Below, one piece after another: positions 4,835-28,438 of a stretch of DNA of 37,159 nt (position 1 is the stretch's first letter; every line of letters starts with the position of its first letter). The stretch is taken from assembly GCA_018240895.1 (NCBI GenBank), contig JAFEEX010000007.1, forward strand, positions 1 to 37,159, given 5' to 3'. Source of the DNA: Pseudomonadota bacterium. Lineage in GTDB: Bacteria; Pseudomonadota; Alphaproteobacteria; Sphingomonadales; Sphingomonadaceae. The notes beneath the pieces were generated by a model. That model worked only from the letters and a program-made list of their open reading frames with translations. It ran no database searches and was not told the DNA's origin. The position numbers and the translations under genes were made by a program.

Positions 4835-4851
4835 TGGTAGCGGAGGAGGGA
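4835..4851. repeat. Distal attachment site copy (att core)
   Basis: Exact 17-bp copy of the tRNA-Met 3' end, in the same orientation as the copy inside the tRNA gene. The bases on each side do not match the tRNA, so only the crossover segment was duplicated. This marks the left end of the element. Confidence 0.9.
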
Positions 4852-13813: not shown

Positions 13814-14221
13814 TTATTGGTGCCGCCCCCGACGACCTTCCGCAAGGCCGGCAAGGATCGGGCAATCCGGGCGCGCATCGCCGCTGCATCCGTCCGCCAG
13901 ATCGAGCAGGGTCTGGCGCATCGCTTCGAGGGCGGCAGCCTTGCGGGCGAGATCGCCGGCATGTTCCAGGGCGATGGCCTTGACCTCGCTGCTGGCCCGC
14001 GTCCGGTCGTCCCACAGGGCGAGCAGCGCGGAGATTTCGTCGATCGAAAAACCGAGATCGCGCGCGTTGGCGATGAAGCGCAAGCGCTCGAGCGAGCGCG
14101 GGGGATAGTCCCGATATCCGTTGTCGCGCCGATCTGGCGGGGGCATCAGTCCGATGCCCTCGTAGTGGCGGATCATGCGCTGAGACACGCCCGTCGCCGT
14201 CGAGACCTGCCCGATGTTCAT
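13814..14221 (-). CDS. cueR: CueR-type MerR-family copper(I) regulator
   Basis: 135 residues from the ATG at 14221. The winged helix is canonical ([39 protein letters not shown]), followed by the dimerisation helix. The metal loop reads CSGDARPDC, the Cys-x7-Cys spacing of CueR (Cys112/Cys120). The helix before it has SSEVK, with Ser at the place of CueR Ser77 that marks sensors of monovalent metals. It should sense cytoplasmic Cu(I)/Ag(I) and turn on the copA operon. It overlaps the DUF2933 gene by 4 bases, so copA-DUF2933-merR are one coupled operon with autoregulation. Confidence 0.9.
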   Translation of the reverse strand: MNIGQVSTATGVSQRMIRHYEGIGLMPPPDRRDNGYRDYPPRSLERLRFIANARDLGFSIDEISALLALWDDRTRASSEVKAIALEHAGDLARKAAALEAMRQTLLDLADGCSGDARPDCPILAGLAEGRRGRHQ

Positions 14222-14421
14222 GGGCGATCGCCGTTCGGTCTTGGATTGCGGCCGTGATGATGACCGCCATGGAAGAAGTGCAGTAGCGGACAGGCGAACA
14301 GGAAGGCGTATGGCAGCAAGCCAAAAAGGTGCGCGCGGTGTTCCGGGTAGAACAGGAACGCGGCGATCAGCGCCGCCGAAACGAGCGCCAGGACCCACGC
14401 GCGTTTGCTGGAGAGATTCAT
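14218..14421 (-). CDS. DUF2933 small membrane protein
   Basis: 67 residues with two short hydrophobic helices ([17 protein letters not shown] and [22 protein letters not shown]), ending in a His-rich HGGHHHG tail. This is the look of DUF2933 proteins, often found next to copper ATPases. A Cys-Pro in the second helix and the His cluster could contact metal; role unknown. It overlaps copA by 4 bases upstream and merR by 4 bases downstream. Confidence 0.78.
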
Positions 14422-16760
14422 AGATCGATGCTCCTGAGCCGCAGCGAATTGCCGATGACGCTGACCGAGGACAGCGCCATCGCCGCCGCAGCGATGATTG
14501 GTGAAAGCATGAGGCCGAACAGCGGATAGAGCGCGCCCGCCGCCACCGGGATACCTGCGACGTTGTATGCAAAGGCGAAGAACAGGTTCTGGCGGATGTT
14601 GCCCATGGTCGCGTGGCTGAGACGGCGCGCGCGGACTATCCCGGTGAGGTCGCCCTTGAGCAGCGTGACCCCCGCGCTTTCGATCGCGACATCTGTGCCG
14701 GTGCCCATCGCGATGCCGACGTCGGCAGCGGCGAGCGCGGGCGCATCGTTGACCCCGTCGCCGGCCATGGCGACGATCCGCCCCTCATCGCGCAAGCGCT
14801 TGACGATCGCGCCCTTCTGGTCGGGCAGGACATCGGCTTCGACATTGTCGATGCCAAGGCGCCGGGCGATCGCATCGGCGGTGACGCGGTTGTCGCCCGT
14901 GAGCATGATGACGTGGATGCCGCCCTCGGCCAGCGCCTTGAGTGCATCCGGCGTGGTCTGCTTGACCGGATCGGCGATGCCAATGGCACCCGCGATCCGG
15001 CCGTCGATGCCGAGGAAGATCGCGGTCGCGCCTTCGCTGCGCAGGCGATCAGCGCGCGCCGCAAGGAGCTGCGTCGGGATGCCCTGTTCATCGAGGAAGC
15101 GGGCATTGCCGGCAACGAGCCGGCGTCCGTCAACCACGCCGGTAATGCCTTTGCCGACCGGCTGGTCGAACTCGCCGGGCTCGCTGATCGTCAGGTTTTT
15201 CGCCTCGGCAGCCTTGACGATGGCCAGCGCCAGCGGGTGCTGGCTGCCGCGCTCGAGGCTGGCGGCAAGCCGGAGTACCTCATCTTCCTCAAATCCGTCC
15301 GCCGTTTCGACGGCAATCACGGCGGGCTTGCCTTCGGTCAGCGTGCCGGTCTTGTCGACGACGAGCGTGTCGACCTTCTCCATCCGTTCGAGCGCCTCGG
15401 CGTTCTTGATGAGGATCCCCGCCTGCGCGCCGCGCCCGACGCCGACCATGATCGACATCGGCGTGGCAAGGCCGAGCGCGCAGGGGCAGGCGATGATCAG
15501 CACCGCCACGGCAGCGATCAGGCCATAGCCCATCGCCGGGGCCGGGCCGACCAGCGACCAGACGGTAAAGGCGATTCCCGCGACCGCGATCACCGCGGGC
15601 ACGAACCAGCCCGAAACGGTGTCGGCGAGCCGCTGGATCGGCGCACGGCTGCGCTGGGCGTCGGCGACCATCTGGACGATCCGCGCCAGCATGGTGTCGC
15701 GCCCGATTCTTTGGGCGCGCATGACGAGGCCGCCGGTCTGGTTGATCGTTCCGCCGATCAGCTTCGATCCCGCCTCCTTGGTGACGGGCATGGATTCGCC
15801 GGTGACCATCGACTCGTCGACCGTGCCGCGCCCTTCCAGCACCACGCCATCGACCGGCACCTTCTCGCCTGGGCGGACACGCAGCGTATCGCCGACGAGC
15901 ACCTGGTCGAGTGCGATTTCCTCGTCGCTGCCATCGGCGCGGACCCGGCGAGCGAGCTTGGGCGAGAGATCGAGCAGCGCGCGGATCGCGCCGCTGGTCG
16001 TCTCGCGGGCGCGCAGTTCGAGCACCTGGCCCAGCAGCACCAGTACGGTGATGACCGCGGCCGCCTCGAAATAGACCGCGACCGAACCATCCGGCGCGCG
16101 GAACGCAGCGGGGAACACGCCCGGCGCAAGCGTTGCCGCCATGCTGTAGGCCCAGGCAACGCCGGTGCCCATCGCTATCAGGGTGAACATGTTGAGATGG
16201 CGGGTTTTGATCGAGGTCCAGCCGCGTTCGAAGAACGGCCAGCCGGCCCACAGCACCACCGGCGTCGCCAGGACCATCTGGACGAGATTGCCCAGACGGC
16301 CGCCGAGTATATGGCGCAGACCGGTCAGATGCCCAGCCATCTCGAGCGCCACGACCGGCAGGGCCAGGACCAGGCCGATCACGAAGCGCCGCTTCATGTC
16401 CGCATATTCGGGCGAGGGACCATCGTTCAGCGTCGGGGTCATCGGCTCGAGCGCCATGCCGCAGATCGGGCAGCTTCCCGGCCCCGGCCGCTGGACTTCG
16501 GTGTGCATCGGGCAGGTCCAGATGGTGCCTTCGGGCACGGCTTCGACCGCGCGGGGCGTCTCGCTCAGATAGCGCGCCGGATCGGCGCTGAACTTTGCGA
16601 GGCAGCCTGCGCTGCAGAAATAGTGATGCGCTTCGCCATGGGTGGCGACATGCGGCGTGGTCGCCGGATCGACGTTCATCCCGCAGACGGGGTCGGTTTC
16701 CATGCCGTGTGATGCGCCGGAATGGGCGCAGTGGCTGTGATCGTGGGGCGACTCGGCCAT
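14418..16760 (-). CDS. copA: CopA-type P1B copper-exporting ATPase with YHS and Met/Cys N terminus
   Basis: 780 residues from the ATG at 16760 with AAGGAG eight bases upstream. The N terminus has no CxxC ferredoxin-like HMA domain. Instead there is a His-rich start, a YHS domain ([31 protein letters not shown]) and a second module ([27 protein letters not shown]). The ATPase core has the TGE loop (MVTGESMPV), CPC in the TM6 ion path ([13 protein letters not shown]), the [10 protein letters not shown] phosphorylation site and [10 protein letters not shown]. The last TM pair has [11 protein letters not shown] and [15 protein letters not shown], typical of Cu(I)/Ag(I) pumps. It exports cytoplasmic Cu(I) to the periplasm. 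Confidence 0.96.
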
Positions 16761-16793
16761 TCGTCTTGCTCCTTAAGTCGCCCCTTCATGAAC

Positions 16794-16816
16794 CTTGACA
16801 TCATGTCATGGTCAAG
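16794..16816 (-). promoter_or_regulatory. Putative CueR-type operator/promoter of copA
   Basis: On the minus strand a 23-bp imperfect dyad begins CTTGAC and ends GTCAAG, with ATGACATGA in the middle, 34 bp before the copA start. TTGACC can serve as the -35; the dyad then fills the long 19-bp spacer that MerR-family activators use. The -10 (CATGAA) is weak. The regulator encoded in the same operon is the natural ligand. Confidence 0.6.
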
Positions 16817-16830
16817 CGGGAAATGTGCTG

Positions 16831-17571
16831 TCAGAAATTCATATGATGCAGCCCGCCATGCATGAATGTCCCGCCAAGGAATCCCTGGACCAGCACCGCC
16901 AGCGTCAAAAGCCCGAGTAAGGCGACGAACATCTTGTCGCCCGCGCGGTCCTCGTGAAACCGGCGCAGCCCCGCCCAGGCGAGCAGGGGCGCGGCAATGA
17001 CGATCGCCATGCCGAGATAGCGGTGCGCGGTGAGAATGAGGTTGCGGTCCCACAGATAGAACCCGCCGGCGAACCAGCCCAGCGGCATGGCGACAACCGC
17101 ACCGGCCGCGCCGGTCACCAGCATGATCCGCGCAGACGTGCGCCAGACCTTGCGCCGCCGGACAATCCCCAGCGCTTCCGCCGCAAAGGCGCTGACGATC
17201 AGGGCAATCGGGAAATGGATGACGACGACATGGAACTTGCCCAGCCAGATCATCAGCCGCTGACCGAACGGCTTGTCGCTGTTGTCCGGCGCTTCGTCCA
17301 TGTCCATGCCGTCCATCGAACCGTGGTCCATCGCCATGGCATCGTCCGCTTCGGGCGCCGGGGTCGAACCGTCGGCCATCATCGGCACCGCGCCCTGGTC
17401 CGCCAGCGCCTTCATGTCCGCCTGGCTCATGCCGCCAGCCTGTTCGGTTTCGGGCGTCCCGGGTCCGGCGCCCATATCGCGCGGATCATCGTGCGCCCAA
17501 AGGGCGGTGCCGCTCGCCGCGCCGACGAGCGCAAGAGCGAGGGCGGCGTTGCGCAGGACACTGGGTTTCAT
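16831..17571 (-). CDS. DUF2231 membrane protein with Met/Asp-rich periplasmic region
   Basis: 246 residues. A signal-like N-terminal helix precedes an acidic, Met-rich region (MAMDHGSMDGMDMDEAPDN). Four TM helices follow, with FHVVVIHFPIALIVSAFAAEALG and AHRYLGMAIVIAAPLLAWAGLRRFHED, the pattern of DUF2231 (heme- or metal-linked membrane family). The C terminus is GTFMHGGLHHMNF. Its His pairs inside helices and terminal Met/His suggest copper or heme contacts; role unknown. It lies between copC and copA in the same leftward direction, with a strong hairpin separating it from copC. Confidence 0.78.
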   Translation of the reverse strand: MKPSVLRNAALALALVGAASGTALWAHDDPRDMGAGPGTPETEQAGGMSQADMKALADQGAVPMMADGSTPAPEADDAMAMDHGSMDGMDMDEAPDNSDKPFGQRLMIWLGKFHVVVIHFPIALIVSAFAAEALGIVRRRKVWRTSARIMLVTGAAGAVVAMPLGWFAGGFYLWDRNLILTAHRYLGMAIVIAAPLLAWAGLRRFHEDRAGDKMFVALLGLLTLAVLVQGFLGGTFMHGGLHHMNF

Positions 17572-17642: not shown

Positions 17643-18023
17643 TTACTTCACGGTGAAGGCGATCTTGCCGCTCTTCACCTCGCGGTCGTCGCCTGCGGCC
17701 ATCCAGCGCAGTTCATAACCGCCCGCCATCAGCGCGCTCTTGGGCATGACCATCACCGACTTGCCATCCTTGCCCATCATCACCGAGACGGGCATCGCCA
17801 TGGTGTGGCCCGCGGCCATGCCGGGCATCGAGGTCATGACCAGCTGGATGCGGGTGTTGGCGGGCCTGATCTTCTCGTTGAACACCAGGTTGATGTGCTG
17901 GGGCCTGGCAACCGTCGAATTGGCGGCGGGGGTCGAGGACACCAGTTGCGGGTGCGCCGAGGCAATTGCAGGCGCCGTCAGTGCGAGCGCGGCGAGGGCA
18001 AAGGCAAGTTTACGATTACGCAT
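17643..18023 (-). CDS. copC: CopC-type periplasmic copper-binding protein
   Basis: 126 residues from the ATG at 18023 with AAGGAG upstream. The signal peptide MRNRKLAFALAALALTAPAIASA is followed by HPQLVSSTPAANSTVARPQHINLVFNEKI, the CopC start in which the mature N-terminal His binds Cu(II). A Met-rich stretch (MTSMPGMAAGHTMAMPVSVMMGKDG) forms the Cu(I) side, then YELRWMAAGDDREVKSGKIAFTVK closes the beta barrel. It carries copper in the periplasm. No separate copD is seen. Expression probably starts from the ECF-type promoter at 18056-18081. Confidence 0.94.
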   Translation of the reverse strand: MRNRKLAFALAALALTAPAIASAHPQLVSSTPAANSTVARPQHINLVFNEKIRPANTRIQLVMTSMPGMAAGHTMAMPVSVMMGKDGKSVMVMPKSALMAGGYELRWMAAGDDREVKSGKIAFTVK

Positions 18024-18055
18024 GGGTGTTCTCCTTGGCAGCGTGTCAAAAGCGA

Positions 18056-18081
18056 ATACGCGGGCCAGGGCTCCATCCCTC
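18056..18081 (-). promoter_or_regulatory. ECF-type promoter of copC (GAGGG-N16-CGTAT)
   Basis: On the minus strand GAGGG (18081-18077), preceded by CATTTT, is followed after exactly 16 bp by CGTAT (18060-18056). The expected start of transcription is near 18049, leaving a short leader with AAGGAG before copC. The same two boxes at the same spacing occur at 18105-18130 and 19453-19478. Confidence 0.7.
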
Positions 18082-18104
18082 AAAATGAACACAAGGAATT
18101 TTTC

Positions 18105-18131
18105 GAGGGATCGGCGATCGCCCCGCGTATA
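18105..18131 (+). promoter_or_regulatory. ECF-type promoter of the cnrYXH-like operon
   Basis: GGAATTTTTC leads into GAGGG (18105-18109), then 16 bp, then CGTATA (18126-18131). The start codon of the cnrY-like gene lies 28 bp past the -10. The motif is back to back with the copC promoter in a 135-bp divergent gap, so one sigma factor could fire both. Confidence 0.72.
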
Positions 18132-18158
18132 GGATGCGAGGCAATAAGGAGATTGTCC

Positions 18159-18437
18159 GTGCCCGACCTTGATCAGATTTTGAGCCGCCTTGGCGCGACC
18201 GCCGTTCCGCTGGAACTTGCCGCGATCGACGACGCTGTATTCGCCGGATTGGCCCGCAGCCGCCGTGAGGCCATGGCGGCTTCGCGGATGACAGGCATCG
18301 CCGCCAGTCTCGCGCTGGTTGCGGGAGTGGCGGGCGGCGGGATTTCCGCCATCGCCCAGGCTGCGGCCCGGCCGCTGTCCCCCTTCGCTGCCGATACCGC
18401 ACTCGCTCCGTCGTCCCTGCTCGCGGTTCATCCGTGA
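18159..18437 (+). CDS. CnrY-like membrane anti-sigma factor (putative)
   Basis: 92 residues from a GTG at 18159 with AAGGAG seven bases upstream. A cytoplasmic N-terminal part (PDLDQILSRLGATAVPLELAAIDDAVFAGLARSRREAMAASR) is followed by one TM helix (MTGIAASLALVAGVAGGGISAIAQAA) and a short periplasmic tail. Size, topology and position match CnrY of Cupriavidus (about 95 residues), which holds the sigma factor CnrH at the membrane. There is little sequence to compare, so the call rests on gene order Y-X-H and topology. The next gene begins about 3 bases before this stop. Confidence 0.65.
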   Translation: MPDLDQILSRLGATAVPLELAAIDDAVFAGLARSRREAMAASRMTGIAASLALVAGVAGGGISAIAQAAARPLSPFAADTALAPSSLLAVHP

Positions 18438-18889
18438 GCTGGAGCAAGCGCCTCGTGCTGATCGCGCTGGTCGCCTTCGCGGCGGCGCTGGGCGGCACAT
18501 ATCTTGGCCGGGCGATCTTTGTCGACCGGACTCCCCGCGAAACCGAACTGCACGCGCTTCTGCACCGTCAGCTGAACCTCGATGCCGCGCAGCAGGCCAG
18601 GATCGACGAAATCGAGCGGCGCTTCGCGGTGCGCCGAACCGCGCTTGAACTCGAGATGCGCGCGGCCAACGCCCATCTCGCCGCCGCGATCGAGGCCGAG
18701 CACGGCTATGGTCCGGAAGTTACCGCCGCGATCGATCATACCCACATGGTCATGGGCGAAATGCAGAAAGAGACGCTCGAGCATCTCTTCGCCATGCGCG
18801 GCGTCCTGAGGCCCGACCAGGCGGCACTGTTCGACCGGAGCGTTACGAAAGCACTGACCGCTGACGCCCAGTCCGCCGCGAAAAGGTGA
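18434..18889 (+). CDS. CnrX-like periplasmic metal sensor
   Basis: 151 residues (start GTG at 18434). One N-terminal TM helix (LVLIALVAFAAALGGTYLG) anchors a helical periplasmic domain. His40, His44, Glu61, His117 and Met121 (HALLH, DEIE, EHLFAM) match the CnrX nickel/cobalt ligands His42, His46, Glu63, His119 and Met123 with a constant offset of 2. CnrX senses metal and releases the sigma factor through CnrY. The stop overlaps the sigma-factor start (GTGA). The motifs are seen; the numbering of CnrX is from memory. The natural metal here may be copper or silver, given the neighbours. Confidence 0.85.
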   Translation: MSWSKRLVLIALVAFAAALGGTYLGRAIFVDRTPRETELHALLHRQLNLDAAQQARIDEIERRFAVRRTALELEMRAANAHLAAAIEAEHGYGPEVTAAIDHTHMVMGEMQKETLEHLFAMRGVLRPDQAALFDRSVTKALTADAQSAAKR

Positions 18890-19461
18890 ACCTGGACCTA
18901 TCCGATTGCAACGATGCGGACCTCGCGGCTCTTGCCCGCGCGGGACGGCAGGAGGCCTATCGCGAGTTGCTTGCCCGGCACCGCGCACCGGTATTCCGCG
19001 TGGTTCGTGCTGCCATCGGCGACGACCACGAGGCGCTCGACATTGTCCAGGAAGTGTTCATTGCCGCATTTGCGGCGCTCGATCGCTATGACCCGGAACG
19101 CCCGTTCGCCGTCTGGCTCAAGCGGATCGCGCTGAACAAATGCCGCGACTGGGCACGGCGGCGGCGCGTGCGCGCGTTCTTCACCCGCGCTGCACCGCTG
19201 GAGGAAGCCTTTGCGGTGGCGGACGATGCCGCTCTCCCCGATGCGCAGGCCGAAAGCCGCGCCGAACTGGCCGGTGCCTCCGCCGCAATAGCAAGCCTGC
19301 CGCATCGCTTGCGCGAGGCTCTGGTGTTGCGGACGGTTGACGGCCTTAGCCAGGCCGAAGCTGCCGAGGTGCTCCAGGTAAGCGAGAAGACCGTCGAAAC
19401 CCGGCTTTACCGGGCCCGAACCAGGCTCAAGGAACAACTCGACGGAATTTTTGAGGGGTAG
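18886..19461 (+). CDS. ECF sigma factor, CnrH-like
   Basis: 191 residues from a GTG at 18886. Region 2 reads YRELLARHRAPVFRVVRAAIGDDHEALDIVQEVFIAAFAALDRYDPERPFAVWLKRIALNKCRDWARRR, and region 4 reads LPHRLREALVLRTVDGLSQAEAAEVLQVSEKTVETRLYRARTRLKEQL. There is no extra domain. It should direct RNA polymerase to the GAGGG-N16-CGTAT promoters found upstream of copC, of its own operon and of the multicopper oxidase just downstream. It is the third gene of the Y-X-H set, with overlapping stops and starts. Confidence 0.93.
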   Translation: MNLDLSDCNDADLAALARAGRQEAYRELLARHRAPVFRVVRAAIGDDHEALDIVQEVFIAAFAALDRYDPERPFAVWLKRIALNKCRDWARRRRVRAFFTRAAPLEEAFAVADDAALPDAQAESRAELAGASAAIASLPHRLREALVLRTVDGLSQAEAAEVLQVSEKTVETRLYRARTRLKEQLDGIFEG

Positions 19462-19479
19462 CGCGATCAGCCGCGTATG
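19453..19479 (+). promoter_or_regulatory. ECF-type promoter of the multicopper oxidase operon
   Basis: GGAATTTTT runs into GAGGG (19453-19457), then 16 bp, then CGTATG (19474-19479). It overlaps the end of the sigma-factor gene. With a start of transcription near 19486, the ATG at 19477 would be excluded, which supports translation from 19516. Confidence 0.7.
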
Positions 19480-19515
19480 ACTTTCCAAAGGTCCTCATCT
19501 CTTCGGGTGTCCCCC

Positions 19516-21279
19516 ATGAATCCAATCGTATTCGACCGTCGTTCCCTGATCCGCGCCGCTGCTGCTGGCGGGGGCGCCTATGTCCTGTCGGCTGCGCTGC
19601 CGGTCTGGGCGCGCAGTGGAACGCCGGGTCTTGCCGCGCCGATGGCGACGGTATCGGGCGACGACATTGCGCTTTCGATCGGTCACACGATGGTCTCAGC
19701 CGGTGGTCGCGAAGGGCATGGCGTGGGTATCAACGGTGCCTCACCTGGGCCGGTCATCCGGCTGAAGGAAGGGCAGAAGGTCCGTCTCGCGGTCACCAAC
19801 ACGCTCGCGGAGGAAAGCTCGATTCACTGGCACGGCCTGCTGGTGCCGTTCCAGATGGACGGCGTTCCTGGCGTGAGTTTCCCGGGAATCGGGCCGGGAC
19901 AAACCTACAATTACGAGTTCGAGGTCAGGCAATCCGGCACTTACTGGTATCACAGCCATTCGGGCATGCAGGAAGCGATGGGCATGTACGGCGCGATCGT
20001 CATCGATCCCACCGGACCCGATCCGGTCGCCTTTGACCGCGAACATGTGATCCTGCTCGCCGACTGGAGCTTCACCCATCCGCACACGCTGCTGCGCAAG
20101 CTCAAGGCGCAGGGCGGCTACTTCAACATGCAGAAGCAGACCTTGTCGGGCCTGCTCGCGGGCAAGGACCAGTCGGCCAAGGATCGCCGGATGTGGGGCG
20201 GAATGCGGATGGACCCGACCGACATCTCGGACGTGACCGGCTCAACCTACCATTTTCTCGTCAACGGGCATGACAGCATGGCCAACTGGACCGGGCTGTT
20301 CGCGCCCGGCGAGCGGGTGCGCCTGCGGATCATCAACGCCTCGGCAATGACCAATTTCAACGTCCGGATCCCCGGGCTGCCGATGACGGTAGTCGCAGCC
20401 GACGGGCAGAACGTGCAGCCGGTCGAGACCGACGAGTTCCAGATCGCCATCGCGGAAACCTACGATGTGATCGTAGAGCCCAAGTCCGACGAGGCCTACG
20501 GCTTCATTGCCGAGGCGATCGACCGGTCGGGCCAGGTCCGAGCCACATTGGCGCCGCGACTCGGCATGGTCGCGCCGATCCCGGCGATCCGCGAACGCCC
20601 GCTGCTCACGATGAAGGACATGGGCATGGGCGAGATGGACATGTCGGGAGGCGACATGGCCGGGATGGATCACAGCAAGATGGCGGGCGGCGACATGGCC
20701 GGCATGGACATGTCGGGAGGAAGCATGAACATGCGCGATCCCTCGGTCGCGCCGCAGGTCAAGATGGGACCGGGGGTGGCGACCTTGGCACCGATGCCGA
20801 TGGACCGCACCGGAGAGCGGCCGACCGGGCTCGAGAAAGTCGAGCACCGGGTGCTGACCTATCATGACCTGAAATCGCTCGTGCCCAACCCTGACACGCG
20901 CGCGCCTTCACGCGAGGTCGACCTCCACCTGACCGCCAACATGGAGCGCTACATGTGGTCCTTCGACGGCCAGAAGTTCAGCGAGAACACCGAGCCGATC
21001 CCGTTCCGGCACATGGAGCGCGTGCGCGTCAATCTCATCAACGACACGATGATGCCGCACCCCATACATCTGCACGGGCATTTCTTCGAGGTCGTGACCG
21101 GTAGTCCCGGCCATCATCCAGTCAAGCATACGGTCAATGTGCTCCCGGGCGGCAAAGTCTCGTTCGACCTGACCGCTGATGGCCTCGGCGACTGGGCATT
21201 CCACTGCCACATGCTGCTGCACATGATGTCAGGCATGTTCCGAGTGGTGACTGTCCGGCGCGAGGAGGAAGGCGCATGA
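19516..21279 (+). CDS. copA: CopA/PcoA-type periplasmic multicopper oxidase
   Basis: 587 residues from the ATG at 19516; an upstream ATG at 19477 lies within the predicted promoter. A Tat signal is present (FDRRSLIRAAAAGGGAYVLSAALPVWA). The cupredoxin domains carry the copper motifs IHWHG, YWYHSHSG, HPIHLHGHFFEV and WAFHCHMLLHMMSGMF. A Met-rich loop (MKDMGMGEMDMSGGDMAGMD and onward) holds extra Cu(I) sites. It oxidises Cu(I) to the less toxic Cu(II) in the periplasm. copB follows with a 4-base overlap. This is not the same protein as the CopA ATPase encoded at 14418-16760, despite the shared name. Confidence 0.96.
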   Translation: MNPIVFDRRSLIRAAAAGGGAYVLSAALPVWARSGTPGLAAPMATVSGDDIALSIGHTMVSAGGREGHGVGINGASPGPVIRLKEGQKVRLAVTNTLAEESSIHWHGLLVPFQMDGVPGVSFPGIGPGQTYNYEFEVRQSGTYWYHSHSGMQEAMGMYGAIVIDPTGPDPVAFDREHVILLADWSFTHPHTLLRKLKAQGGYFNMQKQTLSGLLAGKDQSAKDRRMWGGMRMDPTDISDVTGSTYHFLVNGHDSMANWTGLFAPGERVRLRIINASAMTNFNVRIPGLPMTVVAADGQNVQPVETDEFQIAIAETYDVIVEPKSDEAYGFIAEAIDRSGQVRATLAPRLGMVAPIPAIRERPLLTMKDMGMGEMDMSGGDMAGMDHSKMAGGDMAGMDMSGGSMNMRDPSVAPQVKMGPGVATLAPMPMDRTGERPTGLEKVEHRVLTYHDLKSLVPNPDTRAPSREVDLHLTANMERYMWSFDGQKFSENTEPIPFRHMERVRVNLINDTMMPHPIHLHGHFFEVVTGSPGHHPVKHTVNVLPGGKVSFDLTADGLGDWAFHCHMLLHMMSGMFRVVTVRREEEGA

Positions 21280-22484
21280 AAATCCTGCTCGCTACCGCAG
21301 CTGCAATCGCCATGGCATCGCCAGCCGCCGCGCAGATGGACATGAACATGCCGGGAATGTCGATGCCCGCGAAGCCAGCGGCGAAGCCACCCGCAAAGGC
21401 CAAGCCAAAGGCTAAACCCGCCGCAGCCAAGCCGAAAGCCAAACCTGCCAAGCGTCCTGCGAAGGCAAAACCTGTCAGGAAGCCGACCACTCCTCGCCAT
21501 CAGGCAGCACCTGGAGGTCCGCACCCGGCCAGCCACGACATGTCCGCCATGCCGGGAATGGACATGTCGCAGCCCGAGGCTGCTCCGGCCGCTCAACCAA
21601 ATCCAGCGGCGTCGGCGCCCGACGGCGACATGCAGTCGATGCCCGGCATGGATATGGCGAAGCCGGATGCGGGGGCTGAACCCGCCCCGCAAACAGGTGA
21701 CGACATGTCGGTCATGCCGGGAATGGAACCGGCCGATAGTCCGATAGGCAGTGCGCCTGCCCCCGCGCCGCCCGAGGATCACGCCGCCGACGCGATTTTC
21801 GATCCGGCAGTGATGGCTCGCTCCCGCGAAGCCTTGCGGCGCGAGAACGGCGCCTTCAGCGGATCGATGGTGTTGTTCGATCTTGCCGAGTACCAGGCGC
21901 GCAAGGGGCGCGATGGCTATCGGTGGGAAAGCGATGCCTGGTTCGGCGGCGACATCAATCGTCTGCAGATCAAGACCGAGGGCGAGGGCCGTTTCGGCAA
22001 GCCGATCGAAGATGTCGAGGTTCAGGCGCTCTATTCGCGCGCCATCTCGCCATTCTGGAATGCCCAGATCGGCGTCAGGCATGACATCGTGCCCAATTCC
22101 TCGCGCACCTATGCCGTGGTGGGCGTCGAGGGCATCGCGCCCTACTGGTTCCACGCGACGGGGCAGCTGTTCCTGTCCGACAAGGGCGATGTTCGCGGTC
22201 GGCTCGAAGGCAGCTACGATGAGCGCATCACGCAGCGGTTGATTCTCCAGCCTCGCGTCGAGCTCAATTTCTCTGCGCAGGACATGCCGGCAATTGGTGT
22301 GGGCTCGGGCCTGTCGAGTTTCGAACTCGGTGCGCGCGTGCGCTATGAGATCCGCAAGGAATTCGCGCCTTACGTCGGGGTGGAGTGGTCTGGGAAGACC
22401 GGCGATTCCGCGCGTTACGCCCGTCTCGCCGGCGACAAGCCGAATACGGTCCAGTTCGTGGCTGGCGTGAGGTTCTGGTTTTGA
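21276..22484 (+). CDS. copB: CopB/PcoB-type outer-membrane copper resistance protein
   Basis: 402 residues with a strong RBS (GAGGAGGAAGG). The signal peptide MKILLATAAAIAMASPAAA is followed by MDMNMPGMSM. A long Lys-Ala-Pro run comes next (about residues 30-75), then repeated MPGMDM-type motifs to about 150. The CopB beta-barrel domain starts near DHAADAIFDPAVMARSREALRRENG and ends in FVAGVRFWF, an outer-membrane C-terminal Phe. It forms a pore or binder for copper at the outer membrane together with the oxidase. The Lys-Ala-Pro stretch is unusual for the family. Confidence 0.93.
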   Translation: MKILLATAAAIAMASPAAAQMDMNMPGMSMPAKPAAKPPAKAKPKAKPAAAKPKAKPAKRPAKAKPVRKPTTPRHQAAPGGPHPASHDMSAMPGMDMSQPEAAPAAQPNPAASAPDGDMQSMPGMDMAKPDAGAEPAPQTGDDMSVMPGMEPADSPIGSAPAPAPPEDHAADAIFDPAVMARSREALRRENGAFSGSMVLFDLAEYQARKGRDGYRWESDAWFGGDINRLQIKTEGEGRFGKPIEDVEVQALYSRAISPFWNAQIGVRHDIVPNSSRTYAVVGVEGIAPYWFHATGQLFLSDKGDVRGRLEGSYDERITQRLILQPRVELNFSAQDMPAIGVGSGLSSFELGARVRYEIRKEFAPYVGVEWSGKTGDSARYARLAGDKPNTVQFVAGVRFWF

Positions 22485-23215
22485 GAAAAAAGCAACGTAT
22501 TCACATCCTTGCCAGCCGCTTTCACAAGTGGCTGTCCCTGTTCATCGGTGCGCAGGTTCTGATCTGGTTCGCGAGTGGCGCGCTGATGAGCTTCCTGCCG
22601 ATCGACAAAGTCCGCGGCGAACATTTGGTCGATCGTGAACGCGTCGTCCCGATCCCGGTCGGTTTGACCCTCGTCTCGCCCGACAGGATAAGGGAGCAGA
22701 CAAGCGAGCCAGTCGAGGCGATGACCTGGCACATGGTGGACGGCAGGCCAGTCGCCGAGGTGACGACGGCCAAAGGCATCCGGCTCTACGATGCGGGGAC
22801 CGGACAACTGCTCCCGCCGGTCGACGCCCCGATGGCGACACGCATTGCCGAGGCCGCCTGGAAGCCAGAGGCCAAGCCTGGCTCTACCGTTTCGCGCGTA
22901 ACCAAGGAGAGTCCGGAATACCGGGGCGCGCTGCCCGCGTGGCAAATCGCCTTCGCCGATCCCGATCACACCAGCGTTTTTGTTGCCGAGGACACCGGCA
23001 AGATTACCGCCACCCGCACCGGCGTCTGGCGGCTCTACGATTTCTTCTGGAGCCTCCATATCATGGACTGGAAGGACCACGAGGATTTCAACACCTGGTG
23101 GTTGCTGGCCTTCGCCATTGGTGGGCTAACGCTGGGGCTTACGGGGACGGTCCTGCTGTTCATGCGCTGGCCGGTGCGGCGGCGGAGCAGGCGAAAAAGG
23201 ACGCAAGCTGTTTAA
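22481..23215 (+). CDS. PepSY domain membrane protein
   Basis: 244 residues from a TTG at 22481 that overlaps the copB stop (TTGA); no in-frame ATG fits better. Two TM helices, near the N terminus (WLSLFIGAQVLIWFASGALMSFLP) and the C terminus (WWLLAFAIGGLTLGLTGTVLLFM), bracket a periplasmic domain with PepSY features (VAEVTTAKGIRLYDAGTGQLL, VFVAEDTGKITATRTGVWRLYDFFWSLHIMDWKDHEDFN). PepSY-TM proteins often serve in metal reduction or uptake. As last gene of the oxidase operon it may move electrons or copper across the inner membrane; role not established. Confidence 0.82.
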   Translation: MRKKQRIHILASRFHKWLSLFIGAQVLIWFASGALMSFLPIDKVRGEHLVDRERVVPIPVGLTLVSPDRIREQTSEPVEAMTWHMVDGRPVAEVTTAKGIRLYDAGTGQLLPPVDAPMATRIAEAAWKPEAKPGSTVSRVTKESPEYRGALPAWQIAFADPDHTSVFVAEDTGKITATRTGVWRLYDFFWSLHIMDWKDHEDFNTWWLLAFAIGGLTLGLTGTVLLFMRWPVRRRSRRKRTQAV

Positions 23216-26928: not shown

Positions 26929-28182
26929 TCAGGCAGCTCTTCTCCTGCCCTTTGAAATGTTCACTACCTTGCCGCCGCCAAGGTGGTCGGCCCAATCCTG
27001 CATCATGCGGCGTCGAGGAGCTAGATACTCAGCAGCATTGTAGGCCCCCCGAACCTCATTGCTTTCCGAGTGTGCGAGTTGCAGCTCAACCCAGTCTTCA
27101 TGGTACTTGCGTATCCACATCACTGGCTTGCCGACCTCGACGAGTTGCTCGTTGGCCCAGGTACTCGCCAGACCTCGAAAGCCATGTACCGTCTGCCGAG
27201 TATGGTATCCCAGCCGATAAAGTGCGTAGATCATCGTGTTCTCAGAAATGGGCTTTTTGGGCATGCTGCCTGGAAATAGGAATTCTCCTTCCGTCTCTTC
27301 GATCATGCGTTTGGCAATTGCCACTGCCTGCACGGACAACGGAACAAGGTGCTCACGGCCCATTTTCATTCGATGCGCAGGAATGCGCCAGATCGGCTGC
27401 TTGCCATCAAGATCTTCGAACTCGGATTTCACGGCAAAACGCAGTTCCTTCGTCCTAACCCACGTAAGCAGCGCAAACATCACAGCATCGCGGGTAATCA
27501 GGGACCTGCGCTCGCCCTCTGCCTGATAGGCCTCGAGCTTTTCTAAGAGCGTCGGGACCTCACTGAGTGGTATCCGGCTCATATGTTTCACACGGGGCCG
27601 AGGCTTCAAGGCTCCCCGCAAGTGCGCCGTCGGGTCTGAGGCAGCCAAGCCGCACGCAATTGCAAACTGGAAAACCTGACCCACGCCCTGTTTGGCCCGT
27701 CGGCTGATATCGAGAGCGCCGCGAGCCTCAATCTTGCGCACCATTTCAAGCACGTCTGGTGGCGTGATTTCTTGCATCGGTTTCGTTCCAAGAAACGGAA
27801 AGACGTCCCGCTCCAAACGTGACCAAACGCGTGCTGCATGCGCAGGATCGAGTGCTGACTTTCGATTCTCGTGCCAACGCTCAGCAACGACGCGAAAGGC
27901 CTCGCCGCCATCTGGCGTCAGTGCTGCCTTGTTCTTCATCGGGTCAATGCCCTCCGCAAGGAGTGCCTTGGCTGCGGTTCTCTTATCTCTGGCGGCTGCC
28001 ATGCCGACGCCAGGGTAGGCTCCAAACGAAAGGAGCTTTTCCTTGCCGCCAAATCGATACTTGAGGCGCCAAAGTTTGGCTCCGTTCGGCTGGACCAGCA
28101 AGAACAGCCCCTCTGCATCTGAGAGCTTGTAGGCCTGCGCCCTGGGCTTTGCATTTTTGGCTGCGATTTCAGTCAGAGGCAT
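26929..28182 (-). CDS. intP4: Tyrosine-type integrase (P4/DUF4102 family)
   Basis: 417 residues from the ATG at 28182 with AAAGGAG eleven bases upstream; the frame stays open to 28254. The N-terminal arm-binding domain is DUF4102 type (MPLTEIAAKNAKPRAQAYKLSDAEGLFLLVQPNGAKLWRLKYRFGGKEKLLSFGAYP). A core-binding domain follows, then the catalytic domain with Arg in LLTWVRTKELR, HGFR, the HSESN box and the nucleophile Tyr in RGAYNAAEYLAPRR. It would insert and excise the element at the tRNA-Met gene about 180 bp away. It looks intact. Confidence 0.96.
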   Translation of the reverse strand: MPLTEIAAKNAKPRAQAYKLSDAEGLFLLVQPNGAKLWRLKYRFGGKEKLLSFGAYPGVGMAAARDKRTAAKALLAEGIDPMKNKAALTPDGGEAFRVVAERWHENRKSALDPAHAARVWSRLERDVFPFLGTKPMQEITPPDVLEMVRKIEARGALDISRRAKQGVGQVFQFAIACGLAASDPTAHLRGALKPRPRVKHMSRIPLSEVPTLLEKLEAYQAEGERRSLITRDAVMFALLTWVRTKELRFAVKSEFEDLDGKQPIWRIPAHRMKMGREHLVPLSVQAVAIAKRMIEETEGEFLFPGSMPKKPISENTMIYALYRLGYHTRQTVHGFRGLASTWANEQLVEVGKPVMWIRKYHEDWVELQLAHSESNEVRGAYNAAEYLAPRRRMMQDWADHLGGGKVVNISKGRRRAA

Positions 28183-28236
28183 TGGGGGTATCGCTCCTTT
28201 CCGATACGTTTCGAGAATACCCCCAAAATACCCCCA
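28183..28236. repeat. ATACCCCCA arm-type sites, right end
   Basis: ATACCCCCA is at 28217 and 28228 (plus strand), with one inverted copy at 28183-28191 overlapping the integrase leader. With the pair at 4910-4930 this makes five copies, all near the element ends. The copy in the leader could let integrase repress its own gene. Confidence 0.6.
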
Positions 28237-28250
28237 CACCAAATCTGGCT

Positions 28251-28280
28251 GCAAGCGGAAGCAAGCGGACCCAAGCGGAC
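28251..28280 (+). repeat. Three tandem 10-bp repeats (GCAAGCGGAA type)
   Basis: GCAAGCGGAA, GCAAGCGGAC and CCAAGCGGAC follow each other without gaps. Each is one helical turn, between the arm sites and the att core. They could be bound by an excisionase or directionality factor such as the AlpA-like protein. Confidence 0.6.
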
Positions 28281-28361: not shown

Positions 28362-28378
28362 TGGTAGCGGAGGAGGGA
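28362..28378. repeat. Proximal attachment site copy (att core) in tRNA-Met
   Basis: TGGTAGCGGAGGAGGGA, the 3' end of the tRNA on the complementary strand, identical to 4835-4851. Confidence 0.9.
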
Positions 28379-28438
28379 CTCGAACCCCCGACACGCGGAT
28401 TATGATTCCGCTGCTCTAACCGGCTGAGCTACTCCGCC
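28362..28438 (-). tRNA. tRNA-Met (anticodon CAT), integration target
   Basis: 77 nt with CCA encoded. The acceptor stem GGCGGAG pairs with CTCCGCT, the D-arm is AGCTCAGCCGGTTAGAGC and the anticodon stem GCGGA/TCCGC encloses loop ATCATAA. The T-arm is GGGGGTTCGAGTCCC. Anticodon CAT and an ordinary G1-T72 closing pair point to elongator Met; an Ile2 tRNA (lysidine modified) is less likely. The 3' 17 nt are duplicated at 4835-4851, so the element carried a replacement 3' end and the tRNA stayed intact. Confidence 0.95.

Follow-up and report, generated by a model that had tools for sequence, protein, structure and literature searches.

The window, by which we mean the whole stretch of 37,159 nucleotides that was analysed, very probably carries a copper branch of the CnrYXH signalling circuit, in which a CnrH-type sigma factor would drive three promoters: that of copC, that of its own Y-X-H operon and that of an operon for a multicopper oxidase and CopB. 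In many proteobacteria, the control of periplasmic copper genes is usually attributed to two-component systems or to CueR. The circuit type is already known, and what is new to us is the copper branch, a promoter code found across the order and an HxxM signature in the sensor. The features concerned are as follows.

13832–14221, minus strand: cueR, 78% identical to the annotated CueR of Novosphingobium sp. ES2-1, beside the copA ATPase gene
14418–16760: copA ATPase gene, adjoining cueR
16792–16812, minus strand: candidate MerR/CueR-type operator before copA, one mismatch to ACCTT-N11-AAGGT
16831–17571, minus strand: DUF2231 membrane protein (PF09990)
17643–18023, minus strand: copC (PF04234, E 1e-14), putative target of the leftward promoter
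18056–18081, minus strand: predicted promoter of copC, TGAGGG-N16-CGTAT, +1 near 18048, leader 25 nt
18105–18130, plus strand: predicted autoregulatory promoter of the Y-X-H operon, +1 near 18138, leader 21 nt
18159–18437, plus strand: cnrY-like gene (Y), probable membrane anti-sigma factor, 92 residues, GTG start
18434–18889, plus strand: cnrX-like periplasmic metal sensor (X), PF13801; CnrX/CnrR structures, E 5.3e-17
18886–19461, plus strand: CnrH-type ECF sigma factor (H), CnrH 4cxf, E 5.7e-35; sigma regions 2 and 4
19453–19478, plus strand: predicted promoter of the oxidase-copB operon, +1 near 19486, leader 30 nt
19516–21279, plus strand: multicopper oxidase of the CopA/PcoA type, putative target (TIGR01480, 806.8 bits, cut-off 478.95)
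21276–22484, plus strand: CopB outer-membrane protein, putative target (PF05275, E 3.3e-85)
22481–23215, plus strand, start inferred: PepSY-TM protein (PF03929, in the longer frame 22385–23215), possible third gene of the oxidase operon

The genes Y, X and H follow one another with overlapping ends. The solved structure nearest to the sigma factor is CnrH (the runner-up to 4cxf has an E value of 6.2e-22), and the protein ends just past region 4; ECF20 we take to be the label for CnrH-like ECFs. The Y protein has no Pfam or NCBIfam match, and a single-sequence search of the PDB gave nothing relevant. Its profile, in which the starts were picked automatically and some Y frames are wrong (e.g. 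those of L075 and L076), matches the CnrY profile over nearly the full length (probability 95.5, E 1.5e-8), and this profile-profile match places it with the short class II (CnrY-type) membrane anti-sigma factors. On the right side, the PepSY-TM gene overlaps the copB stop, and the N-terminal part of CopB contains a repeated Met-rich segment (21535–21727). On the left side, the DUF2231 gene is possibly co-transcribed with copC, and relatives of its product (40–44% identity) sit behind copies of the promoter motif in the loci L168, L221 and L128.

Promoter sites and the proposed circuit

The motif GAGGG-N16-CGTAT occurs at three sites in the window, 18081–18056 on the minus strand and 18105–18130 and 19453–19478 on the plus strand, in full agreement with the preliminary description. 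In 100 dinucleotide shuffles of the window, the mean number of matches was 0.01 and none reached three. The whole genome, scanned as 3,167,855 bases in 104 contigs with a completeness given as 89%, has three matches, all at this locus, and none to the reversed pattern; frequent occurrence at random sites, which had been named as an outcome that would speak against the regulon, is not what is seen. Chance repetition of a short motif could be argued from a core of only 10 fixed bases, but it is ruled out by the genome-wide count and by the reversed, swapped and complement controls, and with the strong conservation among relatives and exact-site controls near zero its probability is negligible. 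The form GAGGG-N15-GCGTAT with one mismatch gave 31 matches in the genome (28 beyond the exact three) versus 21 for the reversed form, so that a wider regulon is not clearly indicated in this genome when one mismatch is allowed.

The 135 bp that separate copC from the cnrY-like gene (18024–18158) hold two of the sites back to back, as had been described, with 23 bp between their −35 boxes, and the third overlaps the 3′ end of the sigma gene. The start codon follows the end of CGTAT after 28 nt in Y and 32 nt in copC, which fits the range of 20–35 bp claimed before, but after 37 nt in the oxidase (ATG at 19516), which is slightly above it.

On pMOL28 of Cupriavidus metallidurans, the start sites of cnrY and cnrC lie 23 and 24 bp upstream of the genes, in positions that agree with earlier primer extension, and cnrYp and cnrCp are non-RpoD promoters under CnrH (accessible part of PMC9045368). 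In the pMOL28 sequence, both mapped starts lie after CGTAT with seven bases between, and upstream of CGTAT stand AAGGG-N17 in cnrYp and GAGGG-N17 in cnrCp. The starts in the window are predicted near 18138, 19486 and 18048 because this spacing was taken over by analogy. In the window, promoters with the mapped cnr elements thus precede both Y and the first target that follows H, with a spacer of 16 versus 17.

We infer the binding of the sigma factor, the start sites, the release mechanism and the identity of the metal, which is called copper because of the target genes, and propose the following circuit. In the resting cell, the sensor X would hold the membrane protein Y, and Y would sequester sigma H. 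Copper, or possibly silver, would bind to X in the periplasm, upon which Y would free H, and RNA polymerase with H would start at the three promoters (−35 TGAGGG, −10 [T/C]GCGTAT, 16 bp from GAGGG to CGTAT). The leftward output would be copC and perhaps the DUF2231 gene, while the rightward outputs would be the Y-X-H operon itself, giving a positive feedback, and the oxidase-copB operon, started from the end of the sigma gene. The export of cytoplasmic Cu(I) by copA would be run apart, probably by CueR.

The motif in related genomes

The earlier proposal that the sigma factor drives copC, its own operon and the oxidase operon is supported, as far as sequence can speak, by the likeness to CnrH, by the same −35 and −10 elements as in cnr and by a spacing and position kept in 149 relatives. 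These are 149 of the listed sigma matches (E ≤ 1e-30, in genomes of the order), fetched with up to 5 kb per side (1.53 Mb); related genomes and shared plasmids are among them, so that the counts are not independent. GAGGG-Nx-CGTAT occurs in these loci 267 times with spacer 16 and seven times with spacer 17, while the reversed motif at spacer 16 occurs once. Spacers 13 (14 matches) and 22 (seven matches) are also raised in these sigma regions (L075–L223), and every other spacer from 10 to 23 is found at most once. At least one exact site with spacer 16 or 17 is present in the fetched stretch of 135 of the 149 loci and none in 14, and 37 loci have no such site within the three expected windows. 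Relative to the sigma match, the sites cluster about 790 bp before it (leftward), about 760 bp before it (rightward) and about 560 bp after its start.

Exact sites (spacer 16 or 17) stand before Y in 84 of the 149 loci and behind the sigma gene in 76 of the 129 with an adjoining oxidase and 5 of the 20 without, and an exact leftward site is found in 55 of the 84 loci with a divergent copC versus 3 of the 65 without (Fisher p 1.3e-15). When one mismatch and spacers of 15–18 are allowed, the numbers rise to 140 of 149 before Y (controls at most 19), to 123 of 129 before an adjoining oxidase and 6 of 20 otherwise (controls at most 4), and to 79 of 84 leftward with divergent copC and 34 of 65 without (controls at most 6 and at most 2), the controls being three control motifs run over these windows. 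The leftward near-sites in loci without divergent copC, like the loci that lack an exact site, count against the proposal. When the loci lacking a divergent copC were scanned in a slightly different way, 35 leftward near-sites came up, 34 of them with an open frame behind, which is methyltransferase-like in 22 (one lineage), DUF411-like in three, a P-type ATPase, a DUF2231 relative and a Met/His-rich frame in two each, and single others in three. The 22 methyltransferase-like loci, with the one-mismatch leftward motif, include L195–L209 and L211–L216.

In four of nine loci with a displaced oxidase, the motif lies 34–80 bp before the oxidase match, which supports the proposal; in the other five, a point against it, there is no exact motif within 600 bp upstream. 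Of 52 motif copies found away from the three standard places, 50 are followed by an open frame, and these frames include DUF305-, DUF411- and Met/His-rich-like genes, displaced oxidases, a P-type ATPase and a DUF2231 relative (L128), as well as TonB-receptor-like and cytochrome-like genes and a few of no evident kind (names given by sequence likeness; ATPase and DUF2231 checked by blastp). The regulon had been presented as self-contained, but its extent varies among genomes, with relatives adding DUF411-, DUF305- or Met/His-rich-like genes or a P-type ATPase behind the motif.

A logo of 181 distinct promoter windows with spacer 16 gave, at the positions not used for selection, T (82%) or C (17%) before GAGGG, T at position 7 (69%), [T/C] at position 20 (95%) and G at position 21 (97%). 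The refined element is TGAGGG-N-T-N12-[T/C]GCGTAT. The T-rich run described ahead of GAGGG is present at the sites in the window but is not conserved among the relatives, which keep just one T, and the run is ruled out as a component of the element. Similarly, the CCG or CCCG noticed ahead of CGTAT shrinks in the relatives to a conserved [T/C]G, part of the −10 element [T/C]GCGTAT.

Among 396 genomes of the order, the sigma factor (E ≤ 1e-30) is found in 143 and the refined motif in 97, with one reversed match in all. Motif and sigma factor occur together in 94 of these 97 genomes, while 49 have the sigma factor without the motif and 250 have neither (p 6e-50). The form with a T-run (TTTTN) coincides with the sigma factor in 28 of 32 genomes. 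Among the exceptions to the refined motif, G365 has a sigma relative just under the cut-off (E 3e-28, one-locus search), and G209 (L058) has back-to-back motifs at an oxidase-copC pair with no match to Y-X-H or the sigma factor in the 3-kb locus, possibly an orphan regulon. In G224, G248, G270, G314 and G393, three sigma relatives per genome are found among the matches listed, and in each of these genomes the three apparently share one promoter code.

It could be supposed that the sites are read by another ECF sigma factor, or that a copper regulator (CopR, for instance) uses them as operators, with the sigma gene a bystander, and the 14 of 149 sigma loci without an exact site nearby would agree with this. 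However, the bipartite elements are the same as in the mapped cnr promoters, the spacer is nearly fixed and the motif is accompanied by the sigma factor in nearly all genomes that have it, all of which makes a bystander role very improbable. We therefore keep to sigma H as the factor that would read the three promoters.

Sensor ligands and control by metals

The ligands of the metal in CnrX, taken by us from the CnrX structures, are H42, H46, E63, H119 and M123, and the sensor in the window has all five identical. Among 153 aligned sensors, the first four are kept in 153 and M123 in 151. Thus, the primary ligands are those of a nickel/cobalt sensor, which is a point against a copper circuit. 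It would fit a reading in which the promoters belong to this sigma factor while a different divalent metal (Ni, Co or Zn) acts as inducer and the copper genes are cargo downstream. Against this stand the targets of the relatives, which are copper-type, with a multicopper oxidase in the fetched stretch of 140 of the 149 loci, and the residues H104 and M107, present in copper-linked sensors and absent from CnrC-linked ones. We regard another inducing metal as unlikely, though less so than a bystander sigma factor, and copper as the probable signal.

Positions 104 and 107 of the window sensor are His and Met in all 152 sensors besides CnrX, which has Glu and Ala, and position 90 is His in 142 of the 153. 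All seven CnrC-linked sensors (L071, L224–L227, L339 and L340, some of them nearly identical) have Pro, Glu and Ala at 90, 104 and 107, while the oxidase-linked sensors in two further locus sets all have H104 and M107. The pair is not universal, since L286 and L289, with neither a multicopper oxidase nor CnrC behind the sigma gene, have Tyr or Phe at 104; in their sensors Asn replaces the first ligand. In a tree of 210 distinct sigma sequences, the six distinct CnrC-linked ones fall in one split (support 0.78). These patterns suggest a copper branch in which the sensor bears an additional, putatively metal-related feature, HxxM. We tentatively go further and consider it conceivable, short of probable, that there is a distinct CnrYXH branch dedicated to copper, widespread in Sphingomonadales and reaching Caulobacter and Phenylobacterium, whose CnrX-type sensor keeps the whole nickel/cobalt ligand set and uses a conserved HxxM (H104 and M107, often with H90) to help read copper, with a promoter code barely changed between branches. 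If so, the sensor alone would have undergone the change of metal specificity, and promoters could be shared by several sigma factors of this kind within a cell. The nickel/cobalt and copper branches, with the same five ligands and a diagnostic HxxM, would make it possible to test directly how a periplasmic sensor switches metal. The length of the spacer was discarded as a marker of the metal branch, since spacer 16 also occurs in an Azomonas locus linked to CnrC and spacer 17 in some copper loci.

The copA gene and the cus operon had been thought to be under separate control, and no exact copy of the motif stands ahead of either in the window, so that in this genome the motif is rejected as a controlling element of cus or copA. 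For copA the claim gains from the adjacent cueR and from the dyad at 16792–16812, one mismatch off ACCTT-N11-AAGGT, which we take to be the MerR/CueR operator consensus (0.28 matches of this type are expected by chance in the window); for cus, what is shown is the absence of the motif. From these sequence features, copA is probably controlled by CueR, apart from the sigma circuit. In relatives, a P-type ATPase gene lies behind an exact motif in four loci (L085, L086, L088 and L096) and behind a one-mismatch motif in two further ones (L167 and L192).

Mobility of the locus and comparison with known systems

The copper block is also found on plasmids of Novosphingobium, Sphingobium and others, and 35 of 68 sigma-bearing plasmid records are typed as conjugative. 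In three fetched plasmid records, copC-copD runs leftward and Y-X-H-oxidase-copB rightward, and two standard sites are exact in each (those of Y and copC in L072, those of the oxidase and copC in L073 and L074), with the motif as islands in an otherwise diverged intergenic stretch. Furthermore, [A/G]AGGG-N16/17-CGTAT occurs at least once in 74 of 80 loci from a genome collection, a set that includes Caulobacter, Phenylobacterium, Cupriavidus, Azomonas and Stenotrophomonas. A transferable sigma circuit appears to govern periplasmic copper genes in many members of the order and on conjugative plasmids, and a predictable promoter code would allow such regulons to be read straight from genomes.

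In the window, 17 identical bases occur at 4835–4851 and 28362–28378, the second copy being the 3′ end of a tRNA-Met gene (28362–28438, minus strand), beside which lies a gene for a phage-type integrase (26929–28254, minus strand). Another genome of the genus has, at the same tRNA-Met, a relative of this integrase (77% DNA identity; L363). It may be that a 23.5-kb island at the tRNA-Met carries the copper genes and the cus genes. The left end of the island stays a proposal because no empty site was found in 14 related loci (flanks of at most 1.5 kb, some ended by contig ends): blastn placed the left flank of the window next to the tRNA in none of them, and tblastx gave no empty tRNA-Met site among the matches listed for these 14 loci.

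In a literature search we met no description of a copper CnrYXH system, a weak result because most subscription papers lay outside the search. Several ECF systems can be compared, each from the accessible part of its source. SigF-NrsF of Caulobacter (PMC8224329) is likewise an alphaproteobacterial ECF sigma system involved in copper stress but differs in its anti-sigma factor and targets, and in the part of the paper available pcoAB are absent from the list of genes that go up under every condition tested. In Acinetobacter, SigAb (PMC12153292) is an ECF that copper stimulates and whose operon includes anti-sigma genes; there, however, these genes are placed downstream, and the copper genes belong to the indirect regulon, the direct one being small. 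CorE and CorE2 of Myxococcus (PMC8103513) are also metal-responsive but are grouped with ECFs having a C-terminal regulatory extension, whereas the sigma factor in the window stops just after region 4.

The closest system is cnrYXHCBAT, the nickel/cobalt determinant of pMOL28, which has in common with the window the overlapping genes in the order Y-X-H, a promoter ahead of Y and one behind H, both with the same −35 and −10 elements, and the same five sensor ligands. The spacers differ (16 here, 17 in cnr), the sigma factor is 43% identical to CnrH, the sensor has the added HxxM relative to CnrX, and the window has an extra divergent promoter towards copC. The targets here are the multicopper oxidase, CopB and CopC, whereas in cnr they are an RND efflux pump (CnrCBA). 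Because the oxidase and CopB, and not CnrCBA, lie behind H, the locus is assigned to the CnrYXH type of circuit and not to the Cnr efflux determinant.
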